Below are positions 21,352 through 29,179 of a stretch of 36,948 nucleotides of DNA, one piece after another; the first letter of the stretch is position 1; each line of letters begins with the position of its first letter. Under the pieces are notes generated by a model that searched no databases, was not told the origin of the DNA, and saw only the letters and a list, made by a program, of their open reading frames with translations. Position numbers and translations under genes: made by a program. Source of the stretch: a virus; IMG/VR virus record IMGVR_UViG_3300035698_006310, positions 1 to 36,948 of that record; one strand, given 5' to 3'.

Positions 21352-21882
21352 TTATACTAATACAAAGTGATCAGAGACTCCAAACAAAGTTCTATCGTCT
21401 GTAGTCTTGTATGCTTTGTTCGTAGCGAACTTACTCTTGTACGAATAAGTTTCTCGCTCTGTATCGTTTCTATGAATGTGATGAAGGTTTGCATATACAT
21501 CAGGAAGTTTGGGTTTCTCTTCTTCTCCAAGTTCACCCTTACACGTTCCTGTAATCTGTACAATCTTTCTCTTCTCAAGCTTCTCAGCGATTACCCAAAC
21601 TCTAACAATGTCTTGTTCATCAACTCCTGCATCATTCTTACCAATCAACTTGAACAAGTCCTTGAAACTCGCAAGAGCATAAGAAGGATACATAACATCA
21701 TTATCACTCTCCTTATCATACACTTGTACAATATGAGCAGACTGATAAAACAATGTCTTACCCTTTTCATTCTTCTTGTTAGTCTTGATTCCATATCTAC
21801 GTAACTCTTCTGCAACGAATCGGATACTTGATGAGGGTGAAAATCTAACGATACTCTCAAGTTGACTTAGCGTATCATTCAT
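21352..21882 (-). CDS. Protein of unknown function
   Basis: 176 residues, not recognised. It has a mixed alpha/beta character (RFVAEELRRYGIKT, SAHIVQVYDKESD, IVRVWVIAEKLEKRKIVQITG) and a polar C-terminal tail with several Tyr/Lys. No motif of an enzyme class is visible. It follows the 226-residue gene with an eight-base overlap and AGGG before ATG 21882, and an internal consensus promoter lies about 200 bases upstream. Confidence 0.6.
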   Translation of the reverse strand: MNDTLSQLESIVRFSPSSSIRFVAEELRRYGIKTNKKNEKGKTLFYQSAHIVQVYDKESDNDVMYPSYALASFKDLFKLIGKNDAGVDEQDIVRVWVIAEKLEKRKIVQITGTCKGELGEEEKPKLPDVYANLHHIHRNDTERETYSYKSKFATNKAYKTTDDRTLFGVSDHFVLV

Positions 21883-22555
21883 TAGGTGTCCCTTTCCTAT
21901 CTATGGTGTATTCTATTATCAGAGGTTCCTCACAAGAAAGTCCCTCATTACTATTTGAATTAGTTTTTTGTATGTAGACGACTCCGGCGAGGTTTTCTTC
22001 ATCGAATGTATGGACGAATCTTCCGACCAAAGTCATTATACTTTCCAAGAGCAAGATCATAACGAAGTTCATTTGTTTTGTTTCAATGTTCATATTATAC
22101 ACCAACTCAGTATATTTGTCAAGGATTTTCTTTAGAGTTTCTTTGATAAAGAGGTTCATCATTAACCCATATACTCTAGGTATATCGATGTTCTCGTCTT
22201 TTAACCCCTTTATTTTGATCTGCTCAGTACCATATTCGATCAGAAGATCAGGATCTAAAGTTGCTGCGCTCGTAAAATACGTCGCTAGAAGAAACTCGTG
22301 AATTATTACATTGAGTTTATGATCTGTATTCTTCATAAGATCGACGCTATATAGAACTTGCTTCCAATCCATTGATAGCTGTACATATTTTCTGATAATA
22401 CAGACAGGGCAGCAGTTTGGATGCTTGATAATGGTCGTATCGAATTGTTTAATAGATGATTCTATCACATAGAGCATATCAAGCAACGTATTGAGTTGTT
22501 CTTCACTCAGATCTAAGGCTCTAAGCTCATTCATATCAATTTTCATGTAACCCAT
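21875..22555 (-). CDS. Protein of unknown function
   Basis: 226 residues, mostly helical. A CCPVC cluster at about residues 48-52 might bind metal with a partner, and a hydrophobic run (FVMILLLESIMTLVG) near residues 159-173 might be buried core or a membrane-touching helix. No family was recognised. ATG 22555 overlaps the upstream gene by 13 bases and has only a weak purine stretch before it; ATG 22546 is an alternative. A consensus promoter is embedded in its coding sequence. Confidence 0.6.
   Translation of the reverse strand: MGYMKIDMNELRALDLSEEQLNTLLDMLYVIESSIKQFDTTIIKHPNCCPVCIIRKYVQLSMDWKQVLYSVDLMKNTDHKLNVIIHEFLLATYFTSAATLDPDLLIEYGTEQIKIKGLKDENIDIPRVYGLMMNLFIKETLKKILDKYTELVYNMNIETKQMNFVMILLLESIMTLVGRFVHTFDEENLAGVVYIQKTNSNSNEGLSCEEPLIIEYTIDRKGTPNE
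22094..22122 (-). promoter_or_regulatory. Consensus promoter inside a coding sequence
   Basis: TTGACA (22122-22117), 17-base spacer, TATAAT (22099-22094) on the minus strand, within the 226-residue gene. Predicted start near 22087 would produce a message for the 176-, 95- and 126-residue proteins and the polymerase without the RuvC-like gene. Confidence 0.7.
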
Positions 22556-23355: not shown

Positions 23356-23373
23356 AAAAATCTCCTTGTAACA

Positions 23374-23402
23374 ATTCTACCAGAACCGTAATCATTTGTC
23401 AA
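23374..23402 (-). promoter_or_regulatory. Leftward promoter P1 for the RuvC-like gene
   Basis: TTGACA (23402-23397), 17-base spacer ending CTGG, TAGAAT (23379-23374) on the minus strand. Its predicted start (about 23367) falls inside the TTGTAACAA palindrome at 23366-23374. Confidence 0.85.
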
Positions 23403-23484
23403 GAAAAAAGTTTCGCCCAGTACTCTTATAACTACTATTCAATAGAAGCTACAATTGTTACAAGATACAAGTTGTCAACTGTAA

Positions 23485-23513
23485 ATTATAACAACGTTGT
23501 ACAAGAAGTTCAA
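23485..23513 (-). promoter_or_regulatory. Possible second leftward promoter P2
   Basis: TTGAAC (23513-23508), 17-base spacer, TATAAT (23490-23485) on the minus strand. The TTGTACAA palindrome lies in its spacer and GTTGTCAAC covers the predicted start near 23478, mirroring P1. Confidence 0.5.
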
Positions 23514-23586
23514 CTGTTACAATGTGAGAATTTGGTTCTAGATTGTAACAAGAGTTATTTCTTTTGATATTTTCTGAGAAAAGATC

Positions 23587-23614
23587 TTGACTTCCTGAAG
23601 ATTTCTGTTAGACT
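23587..23614 (+). promoter_or_regulatory. Possible rightward promoter for thyX
   Basis: TTGACT (23587-23592), 16-base spacer, TAGACT (23609-23614). It is weaker than the others. The palindrome ACAATTATTGT begins right after the predicted start, and AGGAG-GTG follows. Confidence 0.5.
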
Positions 23615-23644
23615 TGGCTCAAACAATTATTGTAGGAGAAGAAA

Positions 23645-24310
23645 GTGAAGATAGTCGAACCGTCAGCGAAGTTACTTTGGAATACACGCAACCCAGAGAT
23701 TGAGATTGAGGAAGCAGGAAGAACTTGTTATAAATCCGAAGAAGATATCACAGCAACTTCAGCTCCCGAATTTATCAAAATGATTATCAAACGTGGTCAT
23801 GAATCGGTTCTGGAACATGCTTCCGCTTCATTCCGAATAATTACTGACAGAGGAATCACACATGAAATTGTGAGACATCGACTTGCTTCTTATAGTCAGG
23901 AATCAACACGCTACTGTAATTACGACAGTGAGAAGTTTGGGAATGAGATTACTGTAGTCAAACCTTCACAATTAGAAGCGTACCCCGAACATACAGATAT
24001 TCATAGAACAACTGAAGATTGGCATAAATATCAAGCATTTTGTTCTTGGGAAGAAGCAATAGAGAAAGCAGAGGCGGTATATCTATTTCTTCTTGACAGT
24101 GGAGTATCACCACAAACTGCAAGATCAGTTCTTCCAACTTGTCTCAAAACAGAAATCGTTATGACTTGTAACTTCAGAGAGTGGAGACATTTTCTTAAAC
24201 TAAGAACAGCAAAAGCAGCACATCCAGATATTAGAATCATTGCCAACTCAATTCAGAAACAATTAAACGAGATCACATCAACAGTATTCCCAATGGAGAC
24301 AAACAAATGA
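23645..24310 (+). CDS. thyX: Flavin-dependent thymidylate synthase
   Basis: 221 residues (family 200-250). ThyX methylates dUMP to dTMP using FAD, NADPH and methylenetetrahydrofolate. The signature RHRLASYSQESTR (77-89) gives the RHRxxSxxxxSxR motif; GHESVLEHASASF and NFREWRHFLKLR are further conserved blocks, the latter with FAD/dUMP-binding residues. Start is GTG at 23645 with AGGAG six bases before; the conserved N-terminal strand begins immediately, so this start is firm. First gene of the rightward operon, overlapping the next gene (ATGA). Together with NrdJ it supplies DNA precursors. Confidence 0.96.
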   Translation: MKIVEPSAKLLWNTRNPEIEIEEAGRTCYKSEEDITATSAPEFIKMIIKRGHESVLEHASASFRIITDRGITHEIVRHRLASYSQESTRYCNYDSEKFGNEITVVKPSQLEAYPEHTDIHRTTEDWHKYQAFCSWEEAIEKAEAVYLFLLDSGVSPQTARSVLPTCLKTEIVMTCNFREWRHFLKLRTAKAAHPDIRIIANSIQKQLNEITSTVFPMETNK

Positions 24311-24930
24311 AGACTATCAACTTTGACATACTTTCAAATCCTGCGAAATTCGATATCATCCTGATACCTTGTTCAACTTATCAGAAAAAGAATGGAACTT
24401 CTCCTATCATTGGTGGTGGTATGTTAGAGGAGATTGTAACGAAGTGTCCAAGTCTTCCTGCTCAAATTGGAAAAGCAGTAGAGGCTTATGGTAACTGTCC
24501 TGCAATCTTGAGTCATATTCCTAATACTTCTAAACCTACAAAGTTTGCAACATTCCCAGTGACTCCAAGTAATCTACGAGCAGAGAATCCAGACGATTAT
24601 GTTTATGACCGTCTCAAAGGTAAATTCAAGAAGTATTCATTACTTCCGGGATGGGCGATTGCTCCTCGAAGTGATATGGTAGAGTTTGCATGTATCAAAC
24701 TTGTAGAGATTATAAAGTATTATAAACTTTCTGTAGTTGCTTTACCTTACGAAATGTTTACATTTGATCCTGAAGACAAAGAACACGAAGAAAGAGTCCT
24801 TGCAATCTTAGGAAAGTTCTTTACTGAAGGACTATTCCTAGTTCATAAACCGACAGAAGAAGCACAGGGTACTGTACAAACTCAAACAAGCTCACAAGTC
24901 TATTACGAAGAAGGAGAAACAGATGTCTAA
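24307..24930 (+). CDS. Macro-domain-like (ADP-ribose-binding fold) protein
   Basis: 207 residues. FDIILIPCSTYQKKNGTSPIIGGGMLEEI is the kind of beta-turn-Gly-rich loop used by macro domains to bind ADP-ribose; FATFPVTPS and SDMVEFACIKLVEII, then LSVVALPYEMFTFDPED follow the core order of phage macro-like proteins. The last about 25 residues are polar and probably disordered. Macro proteins bind or hydrolyse ADP-ribose derivatives; whether this one is active is unknown. ATG 24307 overlaps the thyX stop, with GGAG eight bases before, and the gene overlaps the vWA gene by eight bases, so the three are one translation unit. Confidence 0.65.
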   Translation: MKTINFDILSNPAKFDIILIPCSTYQKKNGTSPIIGGGMLEEIVTKCPSLPAQIGKAVEAYGNCPAILSHIPNTSKPTKFATFPVTPSNLRAENPDDYVYDRLKGKFKKYSLLPGWAIAPRSDMVEFACIKLVEIIKYYKLSVVALPYEMFTFDPEDKEHEERVLAILGKFFTEGLFLVHKPTEEAQGTVQTQTSSQVYYEEGETDV

Positions 24931-25534
24931 GAAGAATAGTGTACTAATCGCATGTGTCCTTGATAGGTCAGGTTCAATGCAAGCAATCATCGGAGATGCA
25001 GTAGGAGGGTTCAATGCATTTCTCAAGAGTCAACAGGAAGACAAGTCAGGTGAATGTAAAATGACGGTTGCGATGTTTGATGATCAGTATGAACTCAAGT
25101 ATAACAACATACCCATTGAGAAGGTTGAAGCATTTACAAACGCTTCTTACTGTCCAAGAGGTCTGACAGCACTCTTCGACGCGATTGGTAAGACAATCAA
25201 TAATGTTGGTAAAGAACTCGACGCTATGAGTGAGGAAGAGAAACCTGAGAAGGTTCTCTTTGTAATCCTTACAGATGGTAGTGAGAATGCAAGTAAAGAA
25301 TTTTCACAGAAAGCTATCAGAGATCTTATCAAAGAGCAACAAGAAACTTGGAAGTGGGAATTCATTTATCTTGCAGCAGACGATGCAGGATTTAAAGCAG
25401 GACAAATGCTGGGTGTCCAACATTCAACAAAGTTCTGTAAGGATAACACAAGAGGAGCATATAATGCAGTGATGGATTCTGCTAGTCTGTATAGATCAAC
25501 AGGTAAAGTAGAAATCGATAAAGATATCTCTTGA
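24923..25534 (+). CDS. von Willebrand factor A domain protein
   Basis: 203 residues. A complete metal-dependent adhesion site is visible: DRSGS (14-18), T82 in RGLTALFDAIG, and D118 in ILTDGSEN. VGGFNAFLKSQQ and MTVAMFDDQYEL match bacterial single-domain vWA proteins. No signal peptide or membrane segment, so it should act in the cytoplasm, probably gripping an Asp/Glu of a partner through the bound metal. ATG 24923 has AAGGAG ahead. Its TGA stop lies within the -35 hexamer of the next promoter. Partner and role are unknown; it is linked to ThyX and the macro-like protein. Confidence 0.88.
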   Translation: MSKKNSVLIACVLDRSGSMQAIIGDAVGGFNAFLKSQQEDKSGECKMTVAMFDDQYELKYNNIPIEKVEAFTNASYCPRGLTALFDAIGKTINNVGKELDAMSEEEKPEKVLFVILTDGSENASKEFSQKAIRDLIKEQQETWKWEFIYLAADDAGFKAGQMLGVQHSTKFCKDNTRGAYNAVMDSASLYRSTGKVEIDKDIS

Positions 25535-25559
25535 CATTAGTTTAAGTTTATGGTATAAT
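25531..25559 (+). promoter_or_regulatory. Consensus sigma70 promoter for ssb-uvsX unit
   Basis: TTGACA (25531-25536), 17-base spacer ending ATGG, TATAAT (25554-25559). The predicted leader is about 38 bases, with AAGGAG before ATG 25604. Confidence 0.92.
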
Positions 25560-25603
25560 GTTTTTGTAAGCAATTTTTTAGATAAGAAAAAAGGAGAAAC
25601 AAG

Positions 25604-26515
25604 ATGACAGCACAAGCAGGAAACGACACTAAGAAGGACATTTGGTATAAGCCAGTAAAGCAATCTGATTATAAAGATATCTCCCAGATCGGAGTTGTTA
25701 CTATTCAGATTCGTATTCTTCCCGGTTTTAACCAAGGTATGATGTATGAAGCAATTTTAGAAAAGGATACCTCAACGTCAAAGTATCCAAACAGCAAGAA
25801 GTGGATTCTTCCTGTACTTGTTATCAATGACCCGCTCCATCCAGAACAAAATGGTCAAGTGAAGGTTATGGATATTTCCAAGACGCTCCGTAACGCAATC
25901 TGTAGTAAGACTACTCCACCAAACTATTATGACCTCAATCAAGGTTTTGGTTTTAATATTGTTGTGGAACTTCAACAGAGCAACGATAAGTCACAGTGGT
26001 TCCCAAATTACGGGCAGTCTTATTTCGATAACACTCCTTCACAAGTTAACAGTCAGTACATTATGGAGAAGATGAACGAGGTACAGATTACAGACTTTGC
26101 AGATTTCACAAGAAAGTTGAATGAATACTTTCTTAAGAAAGCTAATCCACAAGAGCAGCGTTCGTATCAGGGACAGGTAAGTCCACAGGCTACCGCTCCT
26201 GCTTCAGAATACAGCGCAGGAGTTACACCGACTCAACCTGCTCCACAGGCAGCACCACAGGCAGCACCACAGCCTAACTATGCACCACAACCTGTTGCTG
26301 CTCCTGTTGCTGCTCCCGTTGCTGCTCCCGTTGCTGCTCCCGCTGCTTCCGCTGCTCCCGTTGCTGCTGTTCCTGCGTATGCTGCTCCTATGAGTATGAC
26401 ACCTGCACCTGCGGTTCCAGTACAATCTGCTGTAGCACCACAACAGGTAGCACCACAACCTGCACCAAGTTCAGATGATGACTTTGGTGAGATCTTCGGA
26501 CAACCAACTGCGTAG
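25604..26515 (+). CDS. Putative single-stranded DNA-binding protein (gp32 role)
   Basis: 303 residues. The first about 175 residues contain strands compatible with an OB-type fold (VVTIQIRILPGF, KKWILPVLVINDP, FGFNIVVELQQS) and several aromatics. Residues 180-285 are a disordered Ala/Pro/Gln tail with PVAA repeats, and the end is acidic with aromatics (SSDDDFGEIFGQ), like the protein-recruiting tip of bacterial SSB and T4 gp32. There is no obvious gp32 zinc site. The own strong promoter and position directly before uvsX fit high-level expression of a replication ssDNA-binding protein. The functional call is inference from architecture and context; sequence identity to gp32 is not evident. Confidence 0.65.
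   Translation: MTAQAGNDTKKDIWYKPVKQSDYKDISQIGVVTIQIRILPGFNQGMMYEAILEKDTSTSKYPNSKKWILPVLVINDPLHPEQNGQVKVMDISKTLRNAICSKTTPPNYYDLNQGFGFNIVVELQQSNDKSQWFPNYGQSYFDNTPSQVNSQYIMEKMNEVQITDFADFTRKLNEYFLKKANPQEQRSYQGQVSPQATAPASEYSAGVTPTQPAPQAAPQAAPQPNYAPQPVAAPVAAPVAAPVAAPAASAAPVAAVPAYAAPMSMTPAPAVPVQSAVAPQQVAPQPAPSSDDDFGEIFGQPTA
26291..26350 (+). repeat. 12-bp tandem repeat encoding PVAA
   Basis: Four near-identical copies of a 12-base unit (CCYGTTGCTGCT) and a degenerate fifth lie in the flexible tail of the putative ssDNA-binding protein. Unit length is a multiple of three, so slippage would change only tail length. Confidence 0.8.
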
Positions 26516-26531
26516 AAGTAAATTTATTAAC

Positions 26532-26564
26532 CCTCTCGGAATATTATAAACATATTTCGAGAGG
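26532..26564 (+). terminator. Long stem-loop between ssb and uvsX
   Basis: A 13-bp stem with one G-U pair (26532-26544 with 26552-26564, outer part CCTCTCG/CGAGAGG) closes a seven-base loop. Only a short AT-rich stretch, not a clear T-run, follows, so it could be a partial terminator or a processing/stability hairpin that lowers uvsX expression relative to ssb. Confidence 0.55.
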
Positions 26565-26586
26565 TCATTTAAACTAAGGAGAAGCT

Positions 26587-27669
26587 TTGGGTATATTATC
26601 AAAAATGTCAAAAGAGAAACAGTTTAGAGATTCGATACAATGTGTTAAAGATATCAAATCTCCGGGTTATATTTCAACTGGATCTTTTGCATTGAACGGA
26701 ATCTTGTCGGGAGACGTTTATAAAGGAGTACCCGACGATACTATTGTTGCACTTGTAGGTCAATCGAACTCTGGTAAGTCATTTATAATGGCGCACCTTG
26801 TTCGTGAAGCAATTCGCAATGGTTATGAAGTTCTTTTATTTGATAGTGAACGAGCAGTAAGACCAGAATTTTATGAGTCACTCGGTTGTGATACGAGTAA
26901 GATTTTTAGAATCCCAGTTGGAACTGTTTCTAAACTCAAGATTGAAGCATATGAGAAGATCACAGAATTCTACGAGAGAGCAGGAGAGAAGGATAAACTC
27001 TATGTCGGAGTTGATTCGATGGGTAATCTTGCTACTCTAAAAGAAATGACAGATGTAGAAAAGGGTAAAAGCGTTGCAGATCAAGGATCAGGAGCTAAAG
27101 ATCAGAACTCAGCATTCAGAATCATCGCCTCACTTGCAACAGATTACAACTTTCCTCTGGTATTCACGAATCATACATACGCACCAATTGGGGATCTATT
27201 TGCAGCAAGGGATAAGATTTCGGGAGGAAGCAAAGCAATATATAATAGTCATATAATAATCTACGTTGAACGTCTTGTTAACAAGGAAGAAGTAGAAGAT
27301 GCACTTGGTAAGAAGAAGAAGACTCACGTAGGGATACGTATCAAAGCTACAACCGTTAAGAATCGTGAATATCCAGAAGAAAGCACTGTTTATATGGACT
27401 TGAGATACGATACAGGTATGAATCCTTTCTCAGGTTTGCTACAATTCGCAATTCGAGCAGGAGTTATAGAAAACAAACCGAGAGGTTATTTAGTAACCGC
27501 AACTGGCAAGACTGTCTTCGAGAAAGACATCAACAACCCTGAAATATATGATGAAGTAGCACTCACTAAGATTAATGAATGGTTAGGTCAACAAGGATAC
27601 TCTTCACTTTCTGATATATTCTCCGACGATGTTGCCAAAGCACTAGGAGAAAATGATGGCAAAGCGTAA
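26587..27669 (+). CDS. uvsX: UvsX RecA-like recombinase
   Basis: 360 residues. It coats ssDNA and drives strand invasion for recombination-dependent replication. Walker A GQSNSGKS (58-65), LLFDSERAVRPEFYESLG, Walker B VGVDSMGNLA with D143, FTNHTYAP near 171-178 (motif 3 region) and a conserved FSGLLQFAIRAG block match T4 UvsX. A TTG start at 26587 has AAGGAG five to six bases before it; an in-frame ATG six codons later lacks a ribosome site, so TTG is preferred. It overlaps the sigma gene downstream by 14 bases. Confidence 0.93.
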   Translation: MGILSKMSKEKQFRDSIQCVKDIKSPGYISTGSFALNGILSGDVYKGVPDDTIVALVGQSNSGKSFIMAHLVREAIRNGYEVLLFDSERAVRPEFYESLGCDTSKIFRIPVGTVSKLKIEAYEKITEFYERAGEKDKLYVGVDSMGNLATLKEMTDVEKGKSVADQGSGAKDQNSAFRIIASLATDYNFPLVFTNHTYAPIGDLFAARDKISGGSKAIYNSHIIIYVERLVNKEEVEDALGKKKKTHVGIRIKATTVKNREYPEESTVYMDLRYDTGMNPFSGLLQFAIRAGVIENKPRGYLVTATGKTVFEKDINNPEIYDEVALTKINEWLGQQGYSSLSDIFSDDVAKALGENDGKA

Positions 27670-28072
27670 AGTATGTAACGATGCAAAGAAACATTATGTG
27701 GATAAGAAAGAACTAAGAGCAGAAATAATACTGTGTAAGGAGAATGGAAGAGCTTCCGATAACCTTGCAGAGATGTTTATAAAAATTACTAAGGGGGTTG
27801 GGTTACGGTTCAAGAATCTAGATTACTATGGAGTAATGGAAGATGTTCAACAGGATTGTCTTCTACTTCTCTGTCAGAAATTTGAGAACTATGATCCTGA
27901 ACGTAGAAGTAAGACAACGGGACAAAAAACTTCTCCGTTTGCTTTCCTTACAACGATTGTTTACAATCATATGCGTTATAAAGTAACAAGAGAAAAGTCT
28001 CGCAAAGAGAAGCAAGATGATATGACTCAGAAAGCCAGAAGATTTATTGAAAAACGAGAAAGAGGAAATTAA
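27656..28072 (+). CDS. 55: Late-transcription sigma factor (T4 gp55 type)
   Basis: 138 residues from the second of two adjacent ATGs (27656; the first is only three bases from AGGAG). YVDKKELRAEIILCKE, FIKITKGVGLRF, YGVMEDVQQDCLLLLCQKFENYDPER and PFAFLTTIVYNHMRY line up in order with T4 gp55, which contains a short sigma region-2-like core for -10 recognition. It should direct host RNA polymerase to late promoters. The C-terminus is basic (KEKQDDM, ARRFIEKRER) and shorter than in T4 (185 residues). It lies directly before gp47; in T4 the order is 46-47-55. The co-activator (gp33) and clamp (gp45) were not recognised here. Confidence 0.85.
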   Translation: MAKRKVCNDAKKHYVDKKELRAEIILCKENGRASDNLAEMFIKITKGVGLRFKNLDYYGVMEDVQQDCLLLLCQKFENYDPERRSKTTGQKTSPFAFLTTIVYNHMRYKVTREKSRKEKQDDMTQKARRFIEKRERGN

Positions 28073-29179
28073 ATGATTATTGTTCTTGGTGATATACATT
28101 TAGGTATGAGGCGTTCAAACAAAACATTCCATAACATTCTGCTTGCAGAAATAAAATCTGTACTCAAGAGAGTCACTAAGAAAGATTCAGTAGTAATACT
28201 AGGTGATATATTCGATAGCAGAAGCTCAGTAGACTTTAAAATCTTAAATGATGCTTGGGATTTCTTTATTGAGCTATCACGGTCTTGTAAAGAAGTATTT
28301 ATTATAGCAGGAAATCACGACCTTTACTATCGTGATAATAAAGCTGAGTTTGTTAATTGTAGATTTCTTAGATTTGAACCCGGAGCGGATAGTGAAATTG
28401 CACCAGTTCATATTTTTAATGAAATCACAGAAGCAAAGATTGGTGGTAAGAAATGTCTATTCATTCCTTGGGTAGACTCTAAAGAAATGAAAGCAAGTGC
28501 TGTTGATGCAATGTTAGGTGATTATGATATTATATTCGGACACTTTGAGATAATAGGTTTGTATGGACAACATGCAGTTGACGAAAGAACAATGTTCGAA
28601 CAAGAGGATTTCCCAGACGATACTGTTATATTATCAGGACACTACCACAACCGCTCACAAAAGGGTAAACTCCAATACGTTGGTTCACTAATCAACTCTA
28701 CATTTAATGATGTAGGTGAGACTAAAGGTATTCATACAATCAAACGAGGTAACAAGGTAGAATTTATCGAAGGTCATAGTCCTCTCTTTGAGTATATAAC
28801 AATCGATAACCCAACTGGATTCCTTACTGCTATCGAATCTGCTTCTAAGGAACAATTGGATAGCATTCGTAAGAGAGTTAAAGGTAATATTATTAAACTC
28901 ATTATGAATGAGTATGGTACAGACAACGATAATGTATTTAAGTTTATAAAGGAAATGACCCCGTTGGAACTAACTGTCAGTTACAATCGAGTTAGTTTCG
29001 ACAACGGGGTTGATGGGGAGGAATTTGAAGGTTTCGATGCTCGTTCCGATATACAAGATATCATCCACAAGTATATCGAACAGGTGCAGGATAATCTTCC
29101 TGATAACATAGATCCAGAAGATATTAAGACTTTGGTTGCCAAGAAACATCAAGAATTTAAAGTAGATCAATCGTGTTAA
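28073..29179 (+). CDS. 47: Mre11/SbcD-like recombination nuclease (T4 gp47 type)
   Basis: 368 residues. All metallophosphoesterase motifs are present: GDIHLG (6-11), GDIFDS (44-49), AGNHDLY (79-85), FGHFE and SGHYHNR for the metal-binding histidines. With the gp46 ATPase it trims DNA ends to expose strands for UvsX. The C-terminal 110 residues are helical and would bind gp46. ATG 28073 follows the sigma-factor stop without a gap, with GAGG seven bases before. It ends in a convergent junction with the tail genes. Confidence 0.94.
   Translation: MIIVLGDIHLGMRRSNKTFHNILLAEIKSVLKRVTKKDSVVILGDIFDSRSSVDFKILNDAWDFFIELSRSCKEVFIIAGNHDLYYRDNKAEFVNCRFLRFEPGADSEIAPVHIFNEITEAKIGGKKCLFIPWVDSKEMKASAVDAMLGDYDIIFGHFEIIGLYGQHAVDERTMFEQEDFPDDTVILSGHYHNRSQKGKLQYVGSLINSTFNDVGETKGIHTIKRGNKVEFIEGHSPLFEYITIDNPTGFLTAIESASKEQLDSIRKRVKGNIIKLIMNEYGTDNDNVFKFIKEMTPLELTVSYNRVSFDNGVDGEEFEGFDARSDIQDIIHKYIEQVQDNLPDNIDPEDIKTLVAKKHQEFKVDQSC

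Follow-up and report, generated by a model that had tools for sequence, protein, structure and literature searches.

Operators of the lambda type are palindromes that lie between divergent promoters. In the divergent control region malE-malK of E. coli, arrays of oriented boxes for an activator are positioned upstream of both promoters. Ribbon-helix-helix (RHH) repressors act at arrays of tandem operators such as the omega heptads and the MetJ boxes. In phage T4, oriE requires an early promoter and contains direct repeats of 12 nt; like oriF and oriG, it is placed at a transcription divergence with a shift in strand skew (PMC3016281). Here we describe a conserved array of short repeats that shares traits with each of these systems. 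It lies in an IMG/VR virus record of 36,948 bases, which was analysed over its whole length (the window).

The phage and its divergent gap

By gene content (gp43-type polymerase, RegA, gp41-type helicase, gp46/47, ssb, UvsX, gp55-type sigma, primase, RNR and ThyX) the window belongs to a T4-like phage. A DNA match search returned no near relative in the phage collection, where the best polymerase matches are only ~28% identical, and the RuvC-like protein gave no match among known phages. The locus recurs in four IMG/VR contigs: L005 (64 kb, genome G002), L007 (13 kb), L008 (192 kb, genome G001) and L009 (18 kb), with polymerases that are 87, 77, 71 and 64% identical to that of the window. Queries with RuvC, UvsX, RegA, the polymerase and p207 returned no additional contig with the gap. 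The polymerase gene in L008 (8661-10040) contains an in-frame insert of ~460 residues, between GWNC and SDYD of the exonuclease motif, which looks like an intein that carries a homing-endonuclease domain. The ssb-like protein of the window (25604-26515) ends in a long Ala/Pro-rich repeat. A fast-evolving 226-aa gene between RuvC and RegA (21875-22555) gave no family match; its position resembles that of T4 clamp-loader gene 62.

The main open reading frames of the window run leftward up to 23355, rightward from 23645 to 29179, and leftward again to 36821. This map bears out the statement of an earlier note on this DNA that the window contains a single divergent gap. In L009, the gap is flanked by RuvC and p207, the next rightward gene, and no ThyX match was found in this contig. 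The features of the gap are as follows; the two promoters are predictions based on matches to the sigma70 consensus.

23356..23644: divergent intergenic region between the RuvC-like resolvase (leftward) and ThyX (rightward), from the ORF map and protein families; syntenic in L005, L007 and L008
23366..23374: TTGTAACAA over the -10 and start of P_L; window-specific, absent from L005, L007 and L008
23374..23402, minus strand: leftward promoter P_L, TTGACA (23402-23397), 17 nt, TG.TAGAAT (23379-23374); consensus match, in 4/4 relatives
23438..23448: left bracket TTCAATAGAAG, centre ~76 bp upstream of the P_L start
23455..23463: unit TTGTTACAA; same sequence in L005
23465..23470, minus strand: unit GATACA, of the leftward-pointing TGTATC type; GATACA also present in L005
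23471..23479: GTTGTCAAC; equivalent TTGTCAACTG placed elsewhere in the G001 copies
23486..23494: TTATAACAA; missing from the list in the earlier note
23489..23553: conserved array core; alignable to the G001 core copy only when reversed
23497..23504: TTGTACAA; kept in both G001 copies
23514..23522: CTGTTACAA; most strongly conserved of the sites, occurring as CTGTTACAA or CTGATACAA in L005, in L007 and in each of the two G001 copies
23543..23551: second TTGTAACAA; counterpart TTGTAGCAA in L005, TTGTTACAA in G001
23559..23567: right bracket TTCTTTTGA, a variant of TTCTTTGAA, centre ~58 bp upstream of the P_R start
23587..23614, plus strand: rightward promoter P_R, TTGACT, 16 nt, TGTTAGACT; consensus match, in 4/4 relatives
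23623..23633: everted ACAATTATTGT at the P_R start; not kept in L005

The palindromes and the everted copy described in the earlier note could all be located, at or beside their reported positions. The motif TTGTNACAA is far denser in the gap than elsewhere in the window, rather than equally frequent throughout. Exact copies number three within the 289-base gap versus two in the remaining 36.6 kb (five in total); the mean expectation for the gap is 0.03, and none of 5000 dinucleotide shuffles of the region reached three. With one mismatch allowed, the gap contains five sites versus 0.49 expected, a count matched by one of 5000 shuffles. The variants TTGTACAA and GTTGTCAAC, taken singly, would carry little weight. 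The 64-kb relative has only two exact TTGTNACAA sites, both in the gap, and G001 has 14, including one in the gap and eight at 187.1-188.4 kb. A single-strand DNA fold of the gap is unremarkable (z = -1.35), and an Rfam search of the window and L016 gave no match.

A GTNAC-type array occupies this gap in all four syntenic relatives, where it is flanked by the same pair of divergent sigma70 promoters. In L009 (2059-2393), tandem TAGTTACTA repeats at a pitch of 7-10 bp, a variant of the same GTNAC core, replace the array. Array and promoters are thus kept together; the earlier note would have been contradicted by sites lost next to retained promoters. That the sites cluster by chance in AT-rich intergenic DNA is hardly credible and can be ruled out by conservation: some listed variants such as TTGTACAA are individually unremarkable, but the shuffle tests and three bracket pairs in G001 (see below) also speak against this explanation.

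Architecture of the bracketed module

Both core promoters predicted in the earlier note exist as consensus matches, but its second leftward promoter (23513-23485) is absent in the relatives, where inspection of the alignment revealed no convincing -10. The same note had placed sites on transcription starts, in the geometry of operators laid over promoters. The elements behind this description (the site at 23366, the everted copy and the second leftward promoter) are the parts that the relatives have not conserved, and the conserved sites sit between P_L and P_R, upstream of both core promoters. An operator reading of the start-point sites is unsupported because these sites are not conserved, and a lambda-type promoter-overlapping operator was rejected since the overlapping sites at 23366 and 23623 are lost in relatives. 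The locus resembles lambda-type operators in its palindromes between divergent promoters and differs from them in that the conserved sites lie off the core promoters and no CI/Cro-type HTH_3 match was found in four records, at least three of them fragments. From the proposed phage operator region acting in both directions, we retain two-way control as the favoured reading and drop the promoter overlap.

The repeat unit is larger than the earlier note had it: it is bracketed and includes GTNAC/GTATC/GTAGC repeats. Inverted brackets (of the TTCAAAGAAG...CTTCTTTGAA type, or TTCAATAGAAG) enclose outward-pointing TTGTNNC units, mostly TTGTNAC, and the non-palindromic units are mostly directed toward the nearer bracket and the nearer promoter. 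The 24 bases CTTATAACTACTATTCAATAGAAG around the left bracket are identical in L005, in a block that runs up to this bracket and the first unit. Counted from predicted transcription starts, the two bracket centres fall at -58 to -62 on one side and at -70 to -76 on the other in 5/5 divergent modules with two recognisable brackets. The two positions differ by roughly one helical turn and are probably close to the positions of class I activators. Sites placed upstream of both promoters, at a constant helical distance, are expected of an upstream activator array and are observed in these five modules relative to predicted starts. Spacing between units is irregular, with 7-10 bp in places and 27-31 bp in others. 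E. coli malE-malK is alike in that its oriented boxes form arrays which lie between two divergent promoters, upstream of each; the sequence here is different, the array is phage-borne and has inverted brackets, and its activator is putative.

Conservation of the array core reaches well beyond 9-mers. The window core aligns with the core copy of G001 with a score of 67 in reverse and 22 in forward orientation, where 300 shuffles gave at most 32; forward alignment with the 153-kb copy of the same genome scores 48. The opposite orientation of the G001 core copy suggests that between the window and G001 the array either turned around while the promoters stayed in place or gave way to an inverted copy. 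When IMG/VR was scanned with a DNA pattern of the array core, the module appeared only in the two G001 copies; the remaining matches have neither brackets nor units and look like chance.

Three copies in a 192-kb relative

Convergent bracket pairs that fit within 160 bases occur exactly three times in G001, versus 0.25 expected in shuffles, and each pair encloses an array:

85,799: module 1, in the gap equivalent to the RuvC/ThyX gap of the window
153,252: module 2, at a second divergent sigma70-type early promoter pair, with accessory early-type genes on either side
187,527: module 3, in a repeat-packed stretch with few genes

None of the other good sigma70-type promoters listed for G001 has the module. 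On its right side the third copy lacks a -10 that could be recognised, and on its left side no promoter is well placed; its locus of ~1.5 kb contains 49 units versus 10.6 expected, with a spacing peak at 8-10 bp. At 186.9-188.5 kb (L016:3900-5600), GTNAC/GTATC/GTAGC units point one way and then the other. Several G001 proteins (L016:5634-7291, L035:15790-16425, L028 near 832) share an N-terminus like MDxxESIxRFxxLLE, which resembles T4 capsid-targeting sequences.

The repeat-dense third locus, which lacks a strong promoter, would suit another role of the DNA, for example in packaging, in segregation or in anchoring to a host protein. We consider such a role improbable: two of the three copies lie between strong divergent promoters with fixed spacing. 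Still less probable is a mobile or invertible element, in which a small segment, either MITE-like or flipped by a recombinase, would have the brackets as its terminal inverted repeats. Three G001 copies with inverted ends and an array inverted between relatives fit this idea, but target duplications are not apparent by eye, and the core copy holds its position across relatives even though RuvC identity falls to 40%. Searches with the tyrosine (PF00589) and serine (PF00239) recombinase families also gave no match in the window, G001, G002 and the L009 contig, at least three of which are fragments.

Proposed two-way control and the question of an origin

As our preferred reading, to which we give an even chance, the bracketed array is a conserved two-armed cis-acting control module upstream of divergent early promoters of the host-sigma70 type, with a predicted binder. 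A phage or host protein would bind the units cooperatively, and the complex would set the output of both promoters from upstream, acting as an activator or modulator does rather than by blocking the core promoters. It would control RuvC/RegA/polymerase leftward and ThyX/ssb/UvsX/sigma rightward, and expression of the replication genes on both sides would thereby be coupled. This reading is supported by site enrichment and by retention of the array with both promoters in all syntenic relatives, by the fixed bracket spacing in five modules, by units that mostly point toward the nearer promoter, by a conserved core that tolerates inversion between fixed promoters, and by the same module at the second divergent early promoter pair of G001. 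It is weakened because the near-consensus promoter hexamers should need no activator, because unit spacing is irregular, because the third G001 copy lacks proper promoters in its repeat-packed, gene-poor stretch, and because no regulator match was found in the families tried.

For the binding protein, these families gave no candidate; neither RHH_1 nor HTH_3 matched over the cut-off. The earlier note had recognised no DNA-binding repressor gene in the window. One weak sub-cut-off RHH_1 match lies in G001 at 176,019. HTH_3, the sole HTH family tried, gave no match in four records, of which at least three are fragments, and ten unassigned window proteins contain no Pfam domain of the regulator kind. 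The array is similar to RHH tandem operators in its short direct and inverted repeats at a pitch of 7-10 bp, and dissimilar in that no RHH gene exceeds the cut-off and the conserved core promoters are left uncovered.

The earlier note had named a replication origin as the alternative. We regard an origin similar to T4 oriE as a real, if lesser, possibility: the array would serve the initiator as a platform, in the manner of iterons, and priming transcripts would come from the early promoters on either side. Like oriE, the locus has a direct-repeat array, conserved in the syntenic relatives, next to an early promoter, which is predicted from sequence. The likeness to T4 origins extends to divergent transcription and the T4-like phage, and perhaps to a skew shift; unlike here, the T4 origins have no common local motif, and the 12-nt repeats of oriE are evenly spaced (PMC3016281). 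By comparison, one bracketed module with outward-pointing units recurs here at three loci, and G001 would have at least two such origins with one common sequence module.

To examine strand composition, we fitted out the coding-strand effect from the GC3 skew of G001 and applied several window sizes and two skew measures. The GC3 skew jumps upward at both promoter-bearing modules, each in the top 0.3-6% of positions (10-30 kb windows), with a pair-rotation p of at most 0.003, and these two modules score highest among 24 divergent junctions. The skew of leftward genes in G001 is 0.13-0.18 left of 85.8 kb, ~0 at 91-115 kb, 0.11-0.17 at 117-153 kb and 0.04 beyond. In the window, leftward genes have a skew of 0.184 left of the gap versus -0.016 right of it, with non-overlapping bootstrap intervals. 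These jumps favour an origin, as does the 1.5-kb repeat-packed third locus, but the jump at this third module has the opposite direction, G002 shows little change, AT skew gives no matching signal, and with fourfold sites the core jump is nearer 97 kb (18-kb window). Low skew in G001 also coincides partly with late genes, recognised by CTAAATA upstream, so that gene class, early or late, is a partial confounder of the signal. G001 genes show an enrichment of CTAAATA upstream (CTAAATAA: 9 versus 0.4), and the motif is probably the late promoter; a promoter of this type has been reported for phage Aeh1 (PMC1524935). The alternative thus gains from the additional genomic copies and the skew jumps and loses from this confounding. 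Furthermore, an origin does not require fixed spacing between brackets and promoters, and an initiator was not found.

We favour upstream two-way control over an oriE-like origin, and the two readings are compatible: the same complex may double as a replication origin. The conserved array probably controls early transcription in both directions, and it may mark the start of DNA replication. More speculatively, and rather doubtfully, this T4-like lineage may build its origins on one module, with bracketed GTNAC arrays between divergent early promoters, functional in either orientation, combining transcription control with origin function at several loci in one genome. For an uncultured T4-like clade, the array provides a putative control module that can be recognised from sequence and through which a single DNA element would link the replication genes of the two strands. 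Should the module prove to be an origin, sequence searches could test what T4-type origins have in common, a question of long standing.
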